Position numbers and translations under genes: made by a program | Shown: positions 1 through 42,852 of the stretch, one piece after another | Numbering within the stretch: position 1 is the first letter of the stretch | Layout of the letters: every line of letters starts with the position of its first letter | Source: an uncultured Candidatus Melainabacteria bacterium | Lineage (GTDB): Bacteria; Cyanobacteriota; Vampirovibrionia; Gastranaerophilales; Gastranaerophilaceae | Assembly (NCBI GenBank): GCA_950096985.1 | Contig: CATNBA010000011.1 | Span: 1-55,521, forward strand | DNA length: 55,521 nucleotides | Reading direction: 5' to 3' | The notes under the pieces: model-generated | What the model saw: the letters and a program-made list of their open reading frames with translations, nothing else | The model's database searches: none | Told to the model about the DNA's origin: nothing

Positions 1-188
1 GTGATTATGTAACGAAATGTAAAGAAATAAATAGGATATAGCAATTATATACTTTGAAAATACTTTATATAAATGTAAGCAATACACAAGAGATTAATCA
101 AAGAATTAAATAAACACGAGACATACTATTTACACTACCTACTACACACTAACCTTCTACACACGAGGAATTACGTAAAAGAATTCCA

Positions 189-218
189 AACTCTATCTCC
201 AAGATAGGGTTTTTTTTT
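189..218 (+). terminator. Rho-independent terminator of a gene left of the window
   Basis: AACTCTATC (189-197) pairs with GATAGGGTT (203-211), one G-T pair, with a 5-nt loop and a run of T at 210-218. It must serve a plus-strand transcript from outside the window. The 188 bases before it show no frame I can support; a small extra stem (GGAATT 167-172 with AATTCC 182-187) lies just upstream. Confidence 0.75.
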
Positions 219-221
219 GCG

Positions 222-234
222 AGCGTGCCACTCG
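222..234. repeat. Copy 1 of a 13-bp hairpin-like repeat
   Basis: On the minus strand this reads GAGTGGCACGCTC. It differs at one base from GAGCGGCACGCTC at 3949-3961, and each copy can fold into a 5-bp stem with a GCA loop. The two copies bracket the mannosidase and the G-tract pilin gene. The role is unknown and two copies could be chance. Confidence 0.35.
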
Positions 235-257
235 ACCCGCAACATTGGGTTTTGGAA

Positions 258-2174
258 TTATTTAAAAAATATAGGTGTATAAACTATATTAATATATTCC
301 TGATAATTTTCAGGCTCAAAGAATGCGACTGAGAACTCAGCGCAATTGTAGCCTAGCTGCTGTGCATCGGGAACTCCAAACGGCGGACCCGCAGGGGTTG
401 AGCGCGACGGGTTTTTAGGATTAGAAATCACGCCTGTGCTTCTTAAAAGAGTTACAAGCAGAGATTTACCTTTGACTTCGTATTCTGTTAAACCTTGTGT
501 AATAATTCCAAATCCTTGTGTCCCTACATATCTCTGCATCGGTGCAAAGTTTGTTTTAACCTCAATTCCTCGCTCTTTTGGCAAGTGTTCACGCATATTC
601 CAATCAGGGTTAAATTCTCGGTGGATAATTGTGTTCATATCTTCAGAAAATGTTTCTGTTATAGGCTTCTTGAGGTTGAATTTTACCTGCCAGAGTTTGT
701 TTTTTAACTTGTTATCCCATTCGATTTTGAAGCTTATAATTTTGCCGAATTCAACATGAACATCAAAAAAACTTGTTTTAATTATGTTATTTTTGAATGA
801 GTAAATTTCAGCAGTTTCACCATTGTCGTCTTCTGCGGCGCCAAAGTTATATGTATCACCTTCATCTTTAAATCGTACAAACTCCATTTCAATATTGTTG
901 ATGCGGATTTTGCCGTTTTTGACCTCAAACTTTATATTGCATGGCTCGGCAGGTGCGTATTTTAATGTATAAATATCTGTAAAATCTTCTGTAACAGGGA
1001 TTTTTTGAGTGTCATAAAGAAGTGAATTTTCCACACCGAAATGCTTTGAAATAACTTTATATTCCGGAATAAGTTCTTTGCTCTGCATAACCGGTGTTTT
1101 GAAGTTATGTTCAAGTCTTAGTTCTTCAATAATTGAATTTGCGATTTGAATAATTTTTTCATAGCGGGTAATGTTTTCCCTGTGAACCAAATCGGTCGAA
1201 CATCCGCAAATTCCGTCGTGTGCCTGATTTTTTAGCAGTAATTTATATGCATATTCAATTACCGCATCATATTTTGAGCCATATTGTTTCTGTAATTTGT
1301 CAGCTTGTTCTAACAAGTATGTGCATTTTACGTTGTATTGTTTAAGCTTTGTTCTCGCCGAATATGAGCCTTGCAGGATAAATGTTTTGGAATTGTCACG
1401 AAGTTCATCGTTCCATTCAAATTGTTTGAAGTTATCTTTGACAAGTTCAAAATATTCAAACGGGTCGGAAAGCTTAATTTCATAGCCATCAAGCAATTTA
1501 TTTACCAGTTCAACCTGTTCTGCAATATCAGGCTCAACCCCAAGATGGTCAGCTCCTATTGGTAAAAGTAGATAATCACCTGATTTTTCTGCAATTTTAT
1601 CCAAATTCTCTTTTAACCATTCGGCTTTTTGCTCATTTGTCATCGGCGCAGAAAATATGTCCATAAAGTAACCGCGAACCAAATTAACTGTATTTATGCC
1701 GTTAAATGTGAATTCTGACGGAAACTCACCGCATCCTCGCCATACAACACATTTGTCTATGCCAAAATGTTTTAAAACAGGCGGGATATTTTTGCTGTGT
1801 CCGAAAGTGTCTGCAAGATATCCGATAAAATCTTCACAACCGAATTCACGTGAAATTTTTAACCCGATTTCAAGATTTTTTTCAAAAGCTGTTCTGTCAG
1901 TTAAAAATTCGTCAACTAGGGTAAAGCAAGGACCTATAAAAAGTTTTTTTTCTGAGATAAATTTTCGTATCAAAGCTTCTTTTTCAGGGCGGATTTCTAA
2001 ATAATCCAATAATGCAGAAACTTGTCCGTCAAAATAAAATGACGGGATTTTATTTGTTTCAAGGAGTTCGAGAACATTATCAAAAACTCTCAAAAGTCTT
2101 AGCCTGAAAACTTCAAACTCCCGATACCATTCCCTATCCCAATGTGTGTGTAAATATGCAATAACTTTTTTCAT
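258..2174 (-). CDS. Alpha-mannosidase, glycoside hydrolase family 38
   Basis: This 638-residue protein has the GH38 catalytic signature. An HTHWDREWY block lies at residues 9-17, with likely zinc ligands H11 and D13. The nucleophile region DTFGHS has D122, and NQAHDG has H319, the expected last zinc ligand. Family members hydrolyse alpha-mannosides by a retaining, zinc-dependent mechanism. There is no signal peptide, so it probably acts in the cytoplasm on imported manno-oligosaccharides or mannosylated compounds. It is shorter than E. coli MngB, with the difference in the C-terminal beta region. No SD sequence is obvious before the ATG at 2174; a TATAAT-like box lies about 25 bases upstream. 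It diverges from the pilin-like gene at 2278 and has no transporter neighbour. The family call is secure; the substrate is not known. Confidence 0.9.
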   Translation of the reverse strand: MKKVIAYLHTHWDREWYREFEVFRLRLLRVFDNVLELLETNKIPSFYFDGQVSALLDYLEIRPEKEALIRKFISEKKLFIGPCFTLVDEFLTDRTAFEKNLEIGLKISREFGCEDFIGYLADTFGHSKNIPPVLKHFGIDKCVVWRGCGEFPSEFTFNGINTVNLVRGYFMDIFSAPMTNEQKAEWLKENLDKIAEKSGDYLLLPIGADHLGVEPDIAEQVELVNKLLDGYEIKLSDPFEYFELVKDNFKQFEWNDELRDNSKTFILQGSYSARTKLKQYNVKCTYLLEQADKLQKQYGSKYDAVIEYAYKLLLKNQAHDGICGCSTDLVHRENITRYEKIIQIANSIIEELRLEHNFKTPVMQSKELIPEYKVISKHFGVENSLLYDTQKIPVTEDFTDIYTLKYAPAEPCNIKFEVKNGKIRINNIEMEFVRFKDEGDTYNFGAAEDDNGETAEIYSFKNNIIKTSFFDVHVEFGKIISFKIEWDNKLKNKLWQVKFNLKKPITETFSEDMNTIIHREFNPDWNMREHLPKERGIEVKTNFAPMQRYVGTQGFGIITQGLTEYEVKGKSLLVTLLRSTGVISNPKNPSRSTPAGPPFGVPDAQQLGYNCAEFSVAFFEPENYQEYINIVYTPIFFK

Positions 2175-2277
2175 AATTTCTTTGTAACATATTTATTATA
2201 TTAGTGCAAAGTTTTAACAAATATGTTATAACATAATAGGTATTTGTACAAAAATTTTTAATATTATGGAGGAAGTT

Positions 2278-3887
2278 ATGAAAATTGGTGAATATTTTAA
2301 AATCTCGGGGGGGGGGCAGCTGAACCGCGCATAGGTTATACACTGGCGGAAGTAGTAATTACAATGCTTGTTATTGCTATAGTTGTGAGTATCTGTATTA
2401 AATTAACGAAAAGTAAACTCGATAATATAACTTCTTATACATATTATTCCGCTTATCAAACAATAAATTCAGTAACAAAAGAAATGTTGAGGGATTTTGA
2501 TGCTGAAAATGAAGAATATACAACTTCATATTTTTCCCCGTTAACTTATGCTAAAACGGAGTATTCCTGTCCGCAGACTAAAGTCTGGAAATATGAATAC
2601 CCGAATCCACGTACAGAAGAAAGTACTGGTTTTGGTTCACCCTATTTTTCTTATACAACAATCCCGAATGATTGTTTAAACAAGGTATTGGATAAATTCA
2701 GTTCTTCTCTCAAAAATGTTAAAATATGCGGGGGACTACATCAGAACAGTTATGCTGTCACAGATGATTATAACTTATTCATGCCGTCTTTTGATTATGA
2801 AGATGATCCGATGGCTTGTACAAAACCCTGTATGCGTTTTGTATGGAATGGTACTGGAAGCAACTCGGCACAATGGGAAGGAAATAATTGCGGTTCGTAT
2901 TCTCTAAGAGCCTGGGTTTCATCATCCGGATATTGTAATTTATACTCAGAATATAGATCAAATTTCAAAGAAATTATGGGAGATATTGGTTATTGCAGCA
3001 CTGAATTTCCGGACGTACCCGAAAATCCTTCGTGCACTCCTGTTGCCTGTATAGGCGGTAATGAATTTGATATGACTAGTTGTGGCTGTGTGTGCAAAAA
3101 AACAGCACCTTCAGTAATTCCCTGTGGCAAAGAATGGAATGAAGCTCAATGCCGGCTTGTTGACATAACCCCTTGGCCTCCGGTTTGTCCTGCTGGTCAA
3201 ATATTTAAAGATGATGATTCAATATGCGGTTGTGTGAATGAACCCACAACAGTTCCACGCAAAGGTGAAAACTTTTGTAAACTCTTTGTAAGTTATTCAA
3301 ATACTGCGCAACTTGCAGAAGATGACGAATGCAGCGGCTCTGCAATAGCTGAAAACGAAAATGATTTTACAGACAAAGATGCTGATATAATCTTACGCAA
3401 TGGAATGAGGGTATATAACGTAAGTCAAGATCCTGCAAAAATAGATATTTTAAGCGGTAATTCAAAAGGAGTTACGCACACAAAAGCTGACGGTACAGAA
3501 ATAGATATAGACGAGTGGGGTTACACTGTTTATATAGACATTGACGGTTCAAGCGGCAATAGCAAATTGTGGGAAGATGTTTATCCTTTCTATGTAACAC
3601 TGTCCGGTAATGTAATTCCCGCTTATGATCTGGTTAATGAAGGTTTATCCGGAGGTGACAGCAGATTACACTTGCAGACAAGTGGTTATGACGAGTTTAT
3701 AGATAATGACGGACGGCATATTCAGTGGGTTACCAAAAGTAAGACCTTTAAAGAAAGTGCTTGCACAATGGGTTATGTAAAATCAGGAACTCAATACTGT
3801 AGTGGTGTTAGTATGAATACACAATGTGTCCAGCAAGGTCATGACTGCAGATTAAAAACTATTATGCCTGTTAAATTTTTCCAATAA
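2278..3887 (+). CDS. Type IV pilin-like protein, out of frame through a G10 tract (phase-variable candidate)
   Basis: The ATG at 2278 has a strong SD (GGAGG, about 5 bases upstream), but its frame stops at TAG 2332. The pilin frame, open to 3887, begins just after ten G at 2307-2316. One extra G (or two fewer) joins them into 536 residues: a 20-residue leader, a cleavage site RIG/YTLAE with G at -1 and Glu at +5, then a hydrophobic helix typical of type IV pilins and pseudopilins. Starting at the internal ATG 2364 would cut that helix, so it is unlikely to be the real start. The mature part is long and Cys-rich (clusters near CTPVAC, CGCVCKK and CGCVN), suggesting a disulphide-rounded minor pilin or adhesin. 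As assembled the gene is OFF. A homopolymer sequencing error, phase variation, or productive slippage are the alternatives. A bidirectional terminator follows. Confidence 0.8.
2307..2316 (+). repeat. G10 homopolymer in a prepilin leader
   Basis: Ten consecutive G in an AT-rich region, codons 10-13 of the ATG-2278 frame. The distance from ATG 2278 to the pilin frame is 2 modulo 3, so 11 or 8 G would put the gene in frame. The core TC-G10-CAG recurs at 42784-42798. Confidence 0.9.
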
Positions 3888-3889
3888 AA

Positions 3890-3915
3890 AAAGCTCCCTG
3901 TTTTAAGGGAGCTTT
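3890..3915. terminator. Bidirectional terminator between the pilin gene and ycf23
   Basis: AAAGCTCCCT (3890-3899) pairs perfectly with AGGGAGCTTT (3906-3915) around a 6-nt loop. On the minus strand the stem is followed by a run of T, making it the likely end of the ycf23 transcript. It also closes the plus-strand pilin gene. Confidence 0.85.
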
Positions 3916-3948
3916 ATAAAGTCTTTAATTCGCCTTATGTGACGGATT

Positions 3949-3961
3949 GAGCGGCACGCTC
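3949..3961. repeat. Copy 2 of the 13-bp hairpin-like repeat
   Basis: GAGCGGCACGCTC is a perfect 5-bp stem with a GCA loop, overlapping the stop of the minus-strand gene that ends at 3962 or lying directly beside it. Related copy at 222-234. Confidence 0.35.
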
Positions 3962-4720
3962 TTATACTAATTCAACAACTTTAGTTGCATTTCTTGATGC
4001 GATTTCAACAAGGCTTCTTGAAGTTGCCATCATTGACAATGTTGAATCCATTTTATTAATACAAGAACCGCATCCGATAGCTGATGCGCCTGCAGCAAAT
4101 GCAAACGGAGCTGTTGTCGGGTTGATAGCAGTAGCTGTCATAATCGGCAAATCAATATTTCTTGAAAGTTCGATTGTGTTAGAAAGTGTCAATTCAGCTC
4201 TTTCCATCAAACCTCTAACGCCATCAGCTTGTGAATCAGATGAATAATGACCTTCTGTTTGAATTAAGTCAATACCCATAGTTTCTAATTTTCTAGCTAA
4301 TTCAATTTGTTCAGCGATAGCCAATTCTCCAGGAATTGTAACTGAGAAGAATGTTCTCATATCACCTAACATATCAATTGTTTCTTTTACAAGAGAAATA
4401 ACTTGTTCAGCAGAGAAAGACATTCCTTTTTTGTAAAGAACATCAAAGTTTCCAAGTTCAATAGCATCAGCACCTAATTCAACAGCTTTAACCAATTCAG
4501 AAGGAATGATTGAAGATACGAAAATCGGCATATCTGTCATTTCTCTAATTTCAGAAATAATTTCAGGTCTTGCACAAATGTCAACCGCAGATGCACCTGT
4601 TTGTTCCGCTGATGTAACTACTTTTTTAATGTTTTCGATATCAAAGTTATCAATACCTGCGATAACTTTAACAGCTCTTTTTTCTGTTAAGTGTTGTCTG
4701 AATAAATCAATTCTGCTCAT
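3962..4720 (-). CDS. ycf23: Ycf23/DUF561 family TIM-barrel protein
   Basis: The 252-residue product opens with a stretch (KVIAGIDNFDIENIKKVV) that matches the Ycf23 family of cyanobacteria and algal plastids. It continues as a (beta-alpha)8-type sequence with repeated hydrophobic strands (AVDICARPE, PIFVSSIIPSE, DAIELGNFD) and a Gly/Cys-rich end (AIGCGSCINKM). The biochemical function of the family is unknown. The start ATG 4720 has a good SD (AAAGG). The gene is alone on its strand, divergent from the HtrA gene, with a terminator beyond its stop. Its presence is one of the best sequence clues that the organism belongs near cyanobacteria. Confidence 0.85.
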   Translation of the reverse strand: MSRIDLFRQHLTEKRAVKVIAGIDNFDIENIKKVVTSAEQTGASAVDICARPEIISEIREMTDMPIFVSSIIPSELVKAVELGADAIELGNFDVLYKKGMSFSAEQVISLVKETIDMLGDMRTFFSVTIPGELAIAEQIELARKLETMGIDLIQTEGHYSSDSQADGVRGLMERAELTLSNTIELSRNIDLPIMTATAINPTTAPFAFAAGASAIGCGSCINKMDSTLSMMATSRSLVEIASRNATKVVELV

Positions 4721-4867
4721 AATAAATTTCCTTTCATATAAGATTATAAGTTTTTTCTGAATTATACATTAAAATTGTAATAATTACAATAACTAATCCC
4801 AAATATTTTTTTGAGGGTAATGAATAAACTTTGAATTAACGCATAATTATAACAAAAGGGGAGCAAT

Positions 4868-5551
4868 ATGACTAAAAAAATAATTTTGTTTTTAACATAT
4901 ATTTTAATATCGGTAATACCTGTGTCTGCGCATAATTACAGTGCGGATGAAATGGTAAATATAAGTGTTTATGAAAAAATTAATCCTGCAATTGTTGCAA
5001 TAGATGCAAATTTATCAGACGGATTTTCGGCAGGTACAGGGTGTGTTGTCAGAGGCGATGGTGTTATTTTGACAGGTTCACATGTTATCGAAGGTGCTAA
5101 AGATATTGATGTTACAACATTTAACGGTAAAGTTTATAAAGCATCGGTGCTTGCTAAAATGGGTAAAAATAAAGATTTGGCTTTGCTGAAAATTAATCCG
5201 AAACAGCATTTAAAAACAATTGCCTTTGGGGATTCAGAGCAGGTAAAAGTTGGTCAAAAAGTTCTGGCGATCGGTAATCCTTTCGGTTTTGCAGGTACAT
5301 TAACATCAGGGATAGTATCAAGAATTGATTATACTAAAGGGCGAATTCAAACTGATGCGGCGATTAATCCCGGATGTTCCGGAGGCCCTCTTTTAAATTC
5401 GCAAGGCGAAGTTATAGGCATTTCACAATCTATCTATAATCCTGATAATAATATTTCAAATATTGGTATAGGTTTTGCAATCCCTGTAAATGAGGCTAAG
5501 AAATTTATACAAACTGCAAATCTTGATAAAAGTCGTTTTGCATCTAAGTAA
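4868..5551 (+). CDS. Secreted HtrA/DegP-like trypsin-family serine protease without PDZ domain
   Basis: A 227-residue S1C-type protease. Residues 1-21 form a signal peptide (hydrophobic core ending VSA), so it is exported to the periplasm or outside. The catalytic triad is visible: H72 in TGSHVIEG, D103 in NKDLALLK and S171 in NPGCSGGPL. The usual Asn of the NPGNSGGPL box is Cys. The chain ends shortly after the second barrel, so the PDZ domains of DegP are absent. The SD is AAGGGGAG. A permease gene follows after 21 bp on the same strand, which suggests co-transcription. Likely role: envelope protein quality control or processing of a specific substrate. Confidence 0.88.
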   Translation: MTKKIILFLTYILISVIPVSAHNYSADEMVNISVYEKINPAIVAIDANLSDGFSAGTGCVVRGDGVILTGSHVIEGAKDIDVTTFNGKVYKASVLAKMGKNKDLALLKINPKQHLKTIAFGDSEQVKVGQKVLAIGNPFGFAGTLTSGIVSRIDYTKGRIQTDAAINPGCSGGPLLNSQGEVIGISQSIYNPDNNISNIGIGFAIPVNEAKKFIQTANLDKSRFASK

Positions 5552-6309: not shown

Positions 6310-7692
6310 TTAAGCCAAGTATTTCTGTACGGTTTCTTTTGAGAAAACTTCAATACTATCTTGTGAATGTATAAATACAAGACAAGAAATAATGGATTTT
6401 AATGTTTCAAAGTCTGAGAATGATAGTTTATATCTCAAATCCTCCATATTGTTGGCTAAAAATTCCATAATAACTGTTTTGTTTTCAAAAACAAGACTTG
6501 AAAAATAATCAAAAGATTCTTTAGTCTTAATCCCTTCAAGATAGATTATATCGGGTGATTGGAACTCAATAAATCTTGATGCTTTATCCATATTAAAGCC
6601 TACATTTTCATTTAATTCACATTGGTGCACATCTTTCAGATTGTATTTTGCAATACTTTCTAACGTCATTATATTTTTATTTTTAGATGCACTTTCAAGC
6701 AGGAGTGAATAAATAATATGAGTTTTTCCGCTCAATGGAGAACCGCAGACAATAATTATTCCGGGGTTATTAAGCGCGGTTTTAATAACATTTAAATTGT
6801 TTTCGGATTTAATAATTTGATTTAATTGTCTTGGAGGTTTATAAATTTTCAAGAATATTCTTTCGCCCATAATAGTGGGAAATGTTGAAATGCTTGCTAT
6901 AACATTTATTTCATCAACTTTGAAATTCAATTTCCCAAGCTGCGGAACTTCACTTACAGAAGCATCAAGCTCAGCAAGATTTTTAAGTTTTGCTACAAAT
7001 GATGTTGTAAGAACTTGAGGAATATATCCTTTGTTTAAAATTTCAGCGTTCTTTTTGAAATTTACTGCAAATCCATTGTCCTCATTCTGAAATGTTACTT
7101 CATGAACATTTTCTAAAATTGCTTGTTTTAAAATAGCGCGTATGATTTTTTGGATATGATTGTCCGATAAATCCTCATTATGAAGTTCGTCTCGCCAGTC
7201 GTAATCAGCGCCGTTTTCTGTAAAAATTTCTCCGACAATTTCATCTTCTTTGTAATATTCGTTTATTTTATTTAAAATGCTTTTTTCAGAAGATATGACA
7301 GGTTCTATTGAACATTCTGCAGTTTCGATTACTTTATCAATAGCGAAAAGATCGAGTGGGTCTGCCATTGCTACAGTCAATGTTTCCTCTATTTTAAATA
7401 TCGGTATAATTCTATATTTTTTAGCATCAGCAAGGCTGATGTATTTAAGACATTTCGAATCAAGTGTGTAATCGTCAAGGTTAACGTACGGGATATGCAA
7501 TTTTGCTTCCAAAAATTTTAGAATATCATCTTCTGAGAGCACTCCCGAATTAATTAATGCTTGTCCAATATTAATATTTTGAGCATTTGCAATTTCTTGC
7601 GCCTGTTCAATAGTTTCGTAAGCAACAAGCCCTGCTCTGACTAAATCATATTTAAGTTTTTCAAGAGTTTTGTTAGTAACTGTTGTTTCCAT
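6310..7692 (-). CDS. Degenerate GspE/PilB-like type II secretion/type IV pilus ATPase
   Basis: 460 residues. The N-terminal 150 residues form a GspE/MshE N-domain (ALINSGVLSEDDILKFL, then VAMADPLDLFAIDKV). A central domain and a P-loop follow, GSPLSGKT at 317-324. Several catalytic elements are altered. The Walker B region reads DIIYLEGIKTKES where PilB/GspE have a D-P-D-x-I-x-x-G-E-I-R-D box. The tetra-Cys zinc motif is missing and the His-box region is not recognisable. It probably retains nucleotide binding at most, perhaps as a regulatory or c-di-GMP-sensing relative. Its start is 2 bp from the stop of the upstream receiver gene, so the two form an operon. It may influence the pilins encoded in this window; that is inference. 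Confidence 0.75.
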   Translation of the reverse strand: METTVTNKTLEKLKYDLVRAGLVAYETIEQAQEIANAQNINIGQALINSGVLSEDDILKFLEAKLHIPYVNLDDYTLDSKCLKYISLADAKKYRIIPIFKIEETLTVAMADPLDLFAIDKVIETAECSIEPVISSEKSILNKINEYYKEDEIVGEIFTENGADYDWRDELHNEDLSDNHIQKIIRAILKQAILENVHEVTFQNEDNGFAVNFKKNAEILNKGYIPQVLTTSFVAKLKNLAELDASVSEVPQLGKLNFKVDEINVIASISTFPTIMGERIFLKIYKPPRQLNQIIKSENNLNVIKTALNNPGIIIVCGSPLSGKTHIIYSLLLESASKNKNIMTLESIAKYNLKDVHQCELNENVGFNMDKASRFIEFQSPDIIYLEGIKTKESFDYFSSLVFENKTVIMEFLANNMEDLRYKLSFSDFETLKSIISCLVFIHSQDSIEVFSKETVQKYLA

Positions 7693-36074: not shown

Positions 36075-36716
36075 ATGAAAAAAGCATTTACTTTGGCAGA
36101 AGTTCTTGTAACATTGGGCATCATTGGTGTAATTTCTGCAATGACTTTACCAACATTAGTGAAAAATCATCAGCGTCAGGTTTATGTAACACAGCTGCAA
36201 AAAGTTGTAACAGAGTTGTCTCAGGCTGCTGAAAAAGCTACTCAAGATAACAATGCAATATCTCTTGATGAAACTAAATACAATAGTAACAATGCCAATG
36301 GCGCAAAAAATTTTCTTAACGACTATTTTAAAGTCGTAAAAAATTGTGGTACTGATTTGACACCTTGTTTTGCAAGCAGTTATAAAACACTAAATGGTAA
36401 AACATTTACTTTGCTAACTCCTATAAATGTCGTATCATTAGCAAGTGGAGCTGCTATTTCAGTGGTCGGTAATTCTCTTTATTATAGTTATGATTATCAT
36501 GGTTATTTACAGTTACAGGTTGATGTAAATGGGCAACAAGGTCCAAATATACTTGGTAGAGATTTGTTTTATGTGGAGCTTTATAGTGACGGTAAAGTTG
36601 CTGAAAACTATAATTCCGGTGATGATTGGCATGCAGATTACTGTGGAGATGATTTTAATTATGGTTATGGTTGTTTAACTAAAATCATGCGAGACGGTTG
36701 GAAAATGGACTACTAA
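36075..36716 (+). CDS. Type IV pilin-like (type II secretion system protein G-like) protein
   Basis: 213 residues. The N terminus MKKA/FTLAEVLVTLGIIGVISAMTL is a short prepilin leader with Ala at -1 (rather than the usual Gly), Glu at +5, and a long hydrophobic helix. The C-terminal region ends with KIMRDGWKMDY, nearly matching RIIENGWEMDY in the pilin at 42025, so the two are paralogues. Four Cys could form disulphides. Unlike the two G-tract pilins, this gene is in frame with no homopolymer and a good SD (GAGGAG). A terminator follows. Confidence 0.88.
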   Translation: MKKAFTLAEVLVTLGIIGVISAMTLPTLVKNHQRQVYVTQLQKVVTELSQAAEKATQDNNAISLDETKYNSNNANGAKNFLNDYFKVVKNCGTDLTPCFASSYKTLNGKTFTLLTPINVVSLASGAAISVVGNSLYYSYDYHGYLQLQVDVNGQQGPNILGRDLFYVELYSDGKVAENYNSGDDWHADYCGDDFNYGYGCLTKIMRDGWKMDY

Positions 36717-42024: not shown

Positions 42025-42821
42025 TTAGTAATCCATTTCCCATCCATTTTCGATAATTCGTGCAGCACAATTATTTTCCCATCTTTCAAGTGAGGATTGT
42101 CCGCATTTGTTATTTTTATTTTTCCAATAATGTTTATTATTCTCAAGTGTTGATTGGTCTATAAATAATGCAGCATCTTTGCCGCCATTAGGGTATAATT
42201 TACCCTCCCCTGACATTGTAAATAAAAATCTGTCTTTTCCTGAAATATTTGGACCTTTTTTACCATTAACATCTATCTCTAATGCTGGTATAAACTGAGA
42301 ACACATAGTTCCACCGAGTGCTTTTGCATCTTTACATTTTTCAATGGTAAGATTTGTATATTCATCTCCAACATGAAATTCAAAATGGGTTATTGCAGAA
42401 CCATCACTAAAATTGATAGTTTGATTGTCACCTTTGTCAAAATTTTCATAATTTAATTTAAAATATTTACTTAAAAGAACAAACAAATCTTGACAGCCTA
42501 ATGAACTATCGCCAGCTTCACAACAACCACTTTCTTGGTAAACTTGAGGTATATCAATAAAATGTTCAACTTCTGCATCTGCAAGTATTTTTTGAAACCC
42601 TTGTTCCAGCATTGAAACTGATTTTTTTAGTTGATTAACCCAAACTTGCTTTTGATAATTTGCAATTAAAGTTGGCATAGTGAGGGCAGCAACAACACCA
42701 ATAATTCCTAAAGTAATAAGAACTTCTGCCAGTGTAAATCCAGGTTTACAATAATCTTTCCGTAGCTTTACAGGCTCAACGTTTCGGGGGGGGGGCAGTT
42801 CTGAGCTTGTAATTTAATCAT
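42025..42821 (-). CDS. Type IV pilin-like protein, out of frame through a C10 tract (phase-variable candidate)
   Basis: The ATG at 42821 has a strong SD (GGAGGAG), but the coding strand then meets ten C (plus-strand G at 42786-42795) and stops at once. The pilin frame lies 2 modulo 3 away, so one more C, or two fewer, restores 265 residues: a 28-residue leader, cleavage site KPG/FTLAEVLIT with Gly -1 and Glu +5, then the standard hydrophobic helix and a Cys-containing globular region ending RIIENGWEMDY. The first ATG in the pilin frame (42678) lies after most of the helix and is unlikely. It is a paralogue of 36075. OFF in this assembly, unless the tract length is a sequencing error or slippage is used. 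It lies between etfA and purA. Confidence 0.8.
42786..42795 (-). repeat. C10 (plus-strand G10) homopolymer in a prepilin leader
   Basis: Ten G on the plus strand, read as Pro codons in the leader. With the flanks (TC before, CAG after on the plus strand) it matches the tract at 2305-2319, but here the gene reads the opposite strand. Confidence 0.9.
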
Positions 42822-42852
42822 ATCTTAACTCCTCCTTTTTTTATTTTATTAT

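Follow-up and report, generated by a model that had tools for sequence, protein, structure and literature searches.

The 55,521-nt stretch of DNA analyzed here (contig CATNBA010000011.1, positions 1 to 55,521; hereafter the window) belongs to the 1.65-Mb genome GCA_950096985.1 of an uncultured Candidatus Melainabacteria bacterium, and it raises the question of why a type IV pilin-like gene should be separated from its own start codon by a run of ten G that leaves it exactly one base out of frame. The answer we favor with considerable confidence is that this prepilin gene is switched by slipped-strand phase variation at the run, which is one of about 40 such switches in the genome. The gene (pilin gene 1, forward strand) starts with an ATG at 2278 behind the Shine-Dalgarno (SD) sequence GGAGGA at 2268–2273, and its prepilin leader, from this ATG to the cleavage site (2278–2336), contains the G10 tract at 2307–2316, flanked by TC and CA. 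As assembled, the gene is OFF: the ATG frame reads MKIGEYFKISGGGQLNRA and reaches a TAG stop at 2332–2334. With 11 G, translation gives MKIGEYFKISGGGAAEPRIG/YTLAEVVITMLVIAIVVS..., an open prepilin of 536 amino acids (ON), and with 8 G one of 535; the mature pilin (YTLAEV..., 516 amino acids) and its stop codon occupy 2337–3887. No internal start in the pilin frame of this gene lies 3′ of the tract; such a downstream start is present in a few relatives (the second tract of L082, and L281). An earlier note, made from the letters alone, had claimed a strong SD, a single missing base at a run of ten G, a canonical G/YTLAE cleavage site on restoring one G, and a mature protein that slippage leaves unchanged. 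All four are borne out: the frame with one added G runs MKIGEYFKISGGGAAEPRIG/YTLAEV, and the tract lies upstream of the cleavage site and is thus absent from the mature protein.

In the ON frame, the cleavage-site region has the form of a prepilin motif (G or A at the end of the leader, then F/Y...E5 and a hydrophobic helix). A predicted structure of the window pilin has a mean predicted local distance difference test score of 59.7, with a long N-terminal helix (residues 3–52) and a confident C-terminal domain; a structure search with it gave no PDB match at E <1. Members of this pilin's family occur in 30 of the 33 genomes of the genus; they have a conserved N-terminal helix, a variable Cys-rich middle, and conserved C-terminal ~250 residues, and the source genome also encodes a tract-free paralogue (C7) with segments 62–76% identical. 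As to machinery for processing and assembly, 31 of the 33 genomes encode a prepilin peptidase domain, and the window encodes a T2SSE/MshEN ATPase. An Rfam search of window positions 1–5000 gave no match, and no relative was found among viral contigs.

The earlier note had described a single locus. Its account of the window gene stands, but the same arrangement recurs at 42786–42795 and, genome-wide, about 40 times (genome-wide counts were built from searches and sequence stretches). Within the window, the six overlapping matches to G8 or longer correspond to two tracts, where shuffled sequences lead one to expect 0.06. The source genome contains 49 G/C runs of at least 8 against ~2.2 expected under a first-order model; 38 of these are exactly 10 long, and the same model predicts 0.07 runs of at least 10. 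Forty of the 49 tracts sit between an SD-bearing start codon and a pilin motif, that is, in prepilin leaders, placing a homopolymer of switchable length, unlikely to have arisen by chance, inside a translated region. PF07963 has 58 matches in the source genome, and 45 matches besides the window gene exceed the cut-off. The string TCG10CA occurs in ~10 to 74 copies in most listed genomes of the genus, with almost none in a few of them; in ~40 other genera of the family it is missing or rare, with some copies in nine of them, and its reversed control is nearly absent everywhere. Tracts in pilin genes have an assembled length of 10 in ~85% of cases. An SD-preceded, scorable start lies upstream of the tract in 214 of 223 tract-bearing pilin copies; a pilE/pilS-type gene conversion system, with one expression locus and startless silent cassettes, was rejected on this count.

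Does the tract length change? Among homologues it spans 8–13, and includes the lengths 8, 10, and 11 that the earlier note had expected in related genomes. The clearest case is the pair L084 (G008) and L167 (a record matching G018), whose 3,699-nt alignment contains 135 mismatches and a single gap; this gap is in the tract, which is 10 long and followed soon by a stop in one (OFF), and 11 long and open into the pilin in the other (ON). Other close homologues differ likewise, by between one and three units, with 12 versus 10 in L016/L244, 8, 9, and 10 in L120/L126/L123, and 10, 8, and 11 in L129/L132/L135. For the window gene itself, the species is represented by a single assembly. The frame is also changed by other routes, namely a C-to-G substitution that lengthens the run (L178/L226) and a loss of two bases after it (L231/L232). 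An orthologue survey between G008 and G018 yielded only 5 pairs alignable across the tracts, indicating that the pilin repertoires turn over fast.

In the assemblies, the majority of copies are out of frame, which would fit decayed pilin genes whose frameshift marks them as pseudogenes, and the earlier note had named loss of the pilin frame in relatives as the sign of this. Yet intact frames of hundreds of codons follow downstream, and the ratio of nonsynonymous to synonymous substitution rates (dN/dS) is mostly 0.05–0.2 even for pairs in which both genes are OFF as assembled; neither dN/dS values near 1 nor accumulating stops were seen in OFF copies. Genes that are OFF and under purifying selection must be expressed at times. 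Retention while OFF is evident from dN/dS for the related genes and from conservation of the family for the window gene. As, moreover, one length class restores the frame in 82% of the genes, we find decay scarcely credible.

This frame rule was scored in 214 tract-bearing pilin genes of the genus with a scorable start, paralogues included, so that a chi-square test on the counts overstates their independence. To be ON, 176 of the 214 (82%) require a length of 2 mod 3 (8 or 11), whereas 29 require 1 mod 3 and 9 require 0 mod 3; the 2 mod 3 class prevails alike among G-coding (122/153) and C-coding (54/61) genes. Of the pilin genes with a tract of 10, 155 lack a single base, 18 are ON, and 5 have one base too many; the share of scored genes that are ON as assembled is 1/48 in G008 and 10/40 in the source genome. 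Length 10 dominates more where it is OFF (155/176) than where it is ON (18/29). Genes differ widely in how far the tract lies from the start and from the cleavage site, and the shared rule is therefore not mere copied spacing. In G018, the segment from tract to pilin motif exceeds 200 nt and is still open in the ON frame in 30 genes. Between tract and motif, L291, L340, L273, and L293 of this genome have open stretches that are very long and rich in repeats, some of them with two or three FTLAE-like copies in tandem.

Such a rule could also arise if the true length were 11 and short-read assembly under-called G runs by one. Long G runs are error-prone, and the assemblies with visible record titles look like short-read metagenome bins (NODE, k127, k141). 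Several assemblers agree, however, lengths from 8 to 13 are on record, and the 10/11 pair lies in otherwise nearly identical DNA. A control was provided by non-pilin tracts of length 10 inside long open reading frames (at least 30 codons on either side) of the same assemblies: 11 read in frame and 3 lack one base, whereas 18 pilin tracts of this length are in frame and 160 are out (Fisher p ~4e-8, the paralogues not being independent). With non-pilin genes mostly in frame at 10, a blanket under-call is unlikely, and we consider assembly or sequencing error very improbable as an explanation of the pilin tracts.

We therefore weigh phase variation, which the earlier note had proposed and which is supported by the 10/11 alleles, the range of 8–13, the selection on OFF genes, and the presence of a prepilin peptidase, against the observations that speak for caution. 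The evidence on length consists of assembly consensus compared between genomes, and the consensus is unusually uniform; poly-G lengths in a draft-genome set of Campylobacter are broader, with 52% 9G and 30% 10G (PMC6321876). MutS and MutL are encoded in nearly all genomes, so that slippage should be lower than in repair-deficient species and its rate may be modest; absence of mismatch repair as a cause was rejected, as MutS1 and MutL were found. It should also be noted that the window pilin falls below the Pfam and NCBIfam prepilin-motif cut-offs (PF07963, 13.4 bits, or 19.9 in the genome search, against 21.2; TIGR02532, 14.4 against 16.3); it is assigned by its motif and its relatives, and we call it pilin-like on these sequence grounds, not a profile-confirmed member.

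The near-uniform state of one base short at length 10 could, finally, be read as constitutive recoding, the main rival: the tract would be fixed at 10, and transcriptional slippage adding one base, or −1 ribosomal frameshifting, would give low steady expression instead of ON and OFF cells. Ribosomal frameshifting has been reported for the phase-variable gonococcal P.II (opa) genes on expression in Escherichia coli (Belland et al. 1989, as cited in PMC3960869). Recoding would account for the very uniform length and for the 155 of 178 pilin genes at length 10 that are exactly one base short. It would not, in its codon-dependent ribosomal form, predict that the +1 rule holds equally for G-coding and C-coding genes, and transcriptional slippage in bacteria is known chiefly from A/T runs. 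Alleles at 8, 11, and 12 and the natural 10/11 pair also exist, and on balance we consider recoding unlikely.

The best explanation of these sequences is accordingly a large, mostly silent pilin repertoire under slipped-strand phase variation. Each gene consists of an SD, an ATG, a short leader, the G10 or C10 tract, the remainder of the leader, a G/F(Y)TLAE cleavage site, and the pilin. At the default length of 10, about nine in ten pilin genes are one base short and meet a stop in or soon after the leader, and a slip of +1 to 11 or of −2 to 8 would bring the prepilin into frame, each gene being switched independently by slipped-strand mispairing at its run. Prepilin peptidase would then cut off the leader with the tract-encoded residues, leaving the same mature pilin at any ON length. 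A population may thus hold a reservoir of pilins, each ON in a minority of cells and OFF in most. We infer that replication slippage is the source of the length changes, that ON cells occur at low frequency, and that the products are assembled into surface fibers.

The earlier note had called this simple phase variation, and the comparative evidence supports the phase variation; the polarity of the tracts with respect to replication and their conserved flanks go beyond simple slippage. In the source genome, G008, and G031, the G runs share one strand per contig although the pilin genes point both ways. Among 107 adjacent same-contig tract pairs in G000, G008, and G031, there is one strand disagreement, and it sits in contig 1 of G031, where the cumulative GC skew reaches its minimum. 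The sign of the GC skew matches the tract strand in all 12 source-genome contigs examined, placing the G run on the leading-strand sense, that is, on the lagging-strand template; G018 and G024 are exceptions, with a few contigs carrying tracts on both strands. Read on the G strand, the G-coding, C-coding, and non-pilin tracts have one consensus, TTC-G10-CANTT(C/T)TAGC, in common, and no run of 6–8 in the TC..CA context was found in 855 kb examined. Homology between paralogues often starts or stops within 6 nt of the tract, part of which is constraint on the coding side.

Polarity, conserved flanks, and homology breaks are not explained by slippage alone, and we raise, tentatively and as something we rather doubt, the idea that the G10 and its flanking bases (G strand, TTC-G10-CANTTCTAGC) form a distinct DNA element that a fork-coupled process puts in place or maintains, installed in dozens of pilin genes in either coding orientation and serving also as a joint for swapping or inserting leader segments. 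Swapping of whole pilins at the tract was rejected, as homology resumes downstream in the two pairs followed (L051/L251 and L096/L177) and it is the tract-adjoining segment that changes; cassette exchange at the tract is not claimed. A palindrome resembling repetitive extragenic palindromes (GCGGGTCAAGC) was also discarded as an inserted tract-adjacent element, having one copy in 455 kb of the source genome. In G018, tracts crowd at contig ends: ~11 of the 74 are no more than 250 nt away from one, against ~1.5 expected, which looks as though assembly graphs branched there; repeats or strain variation could be the cause.

The second tract of the window is C10 on the coding strand of pilin gene 2 (reverse strand; G10 on the forward strand) and is OFF as assembled and ON at 11 or 8. 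This gene has an SD at 42829–42836, a leader at 42739–42821 (MIKLQAQNCPPPRNVEPVKLRKDYCKPG in the ON frame), and a mature pilin (FTLAEVLITLGIIGVVAALTMPTLI..., 237 amino acids) that with its stop occupies 42025–42738; translation gives MIKLQAQNCPPPETLSL and a stop at length 10, and MIKLQAQNCPPPRNVEPVKLRKDYCKPG/FTLAEV... at 11. A tract-free pilin-like gene with an ordinary short leader (MKKA/FTLAEVLVTLGIIG..., 209 amino acids mature) lies at 36087–36716 on the forward strand, and the type II/IV pilus-type assembly ATPase (T2SSE and MshEN), a plausible part of the machinery, at 6310–7692 on the reverse strand. Pilin gene 1 is neighbored by a divergent gene for a GH38 alpha-mannosidase-like protein (258–2174) and a gene for a DUF561 protein (3962–4720), a family known from cyanobacteria and plastids.

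Elsewhere in the genus, one genome, G027 (L110–L137), has tracts with other flanks, often A/T before the run, and of up to G15. Non-pilin G10/C10 tracts (L054, L030, L023, L031, and L049) are mostly in frame. Their genes were named by eye: the tracts lie in the N-terminus of an AAA-ATPase-like protein, in a ~540-amino-acid protein, in a possible SGNH-type protein, and at the C-terminal ends of an acyltransferase-like and a glycosyltransferase-like protein. The pilin family is also carried by FR900463 (L200), FR900470 (L219), and FR900446 (L226), records titled Fusobacterium sp. CAG:439 that look like Gastranaerophilales and are apparently misnamed.

Among known systems, Neisseria pilC, which encodes a pilus-associated adhesin and not a pilin, is switched by poly-G in its signal-peptide region, and Neisseria pilE undergoes antigenic variation with a G-quadruplex, by gene conversion from the silent pilS copies. 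With these our tracts share a G run tied to type IV pilus variability and, with pilC, a frame switch in a leader; unlike in pilE/pilS, every copy is equipped with a start, an SD, and a tract of its own. The Campylobacter phasome (PhasomeIt, PMC6321876) resembles the present one in its many G/C homopolymers of ~8–12 in a small AT-rich genome, mostly within open reading frames and acting ON/OFF by frame, but here ~80% of the tracts are in one gene family and at one site, the prepilin leader, ~30% are C-coding, length 10 is found almost throughout and mostly means OFF, the strand of the G run tracks the replichore, and the flanking bases show conservation. Like Neisseria opa (PMC3960869), this is a multicopy surface-protein family with a per-copy slippage switch in a leader-coding region that is later removed; opa differs in its CTCTT pentamer repeats and Sec signal peptide, as opposed to mononucleotide G/C and a prepilin (class III) leader, in having fewer copies, and in encoding unrelated proteins. 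The literature searched gave no report of phase variation for Gastranaerophilales or Melainabacteria, which agrees with the earlier note in seeing none described for the group.

If phase variation is correct, these gut commensals would have an unusually dense single-family switch repertoire of ~40–50 pilins per genome, most of them one slip from ON, and a population could carry many surface types simultaneously. The polarity and conserved flank pose a testable question about the origin and upkeep of contingency tracts, and a fork-coupled element, if real, would give phase switching and modular pilin diversification together.
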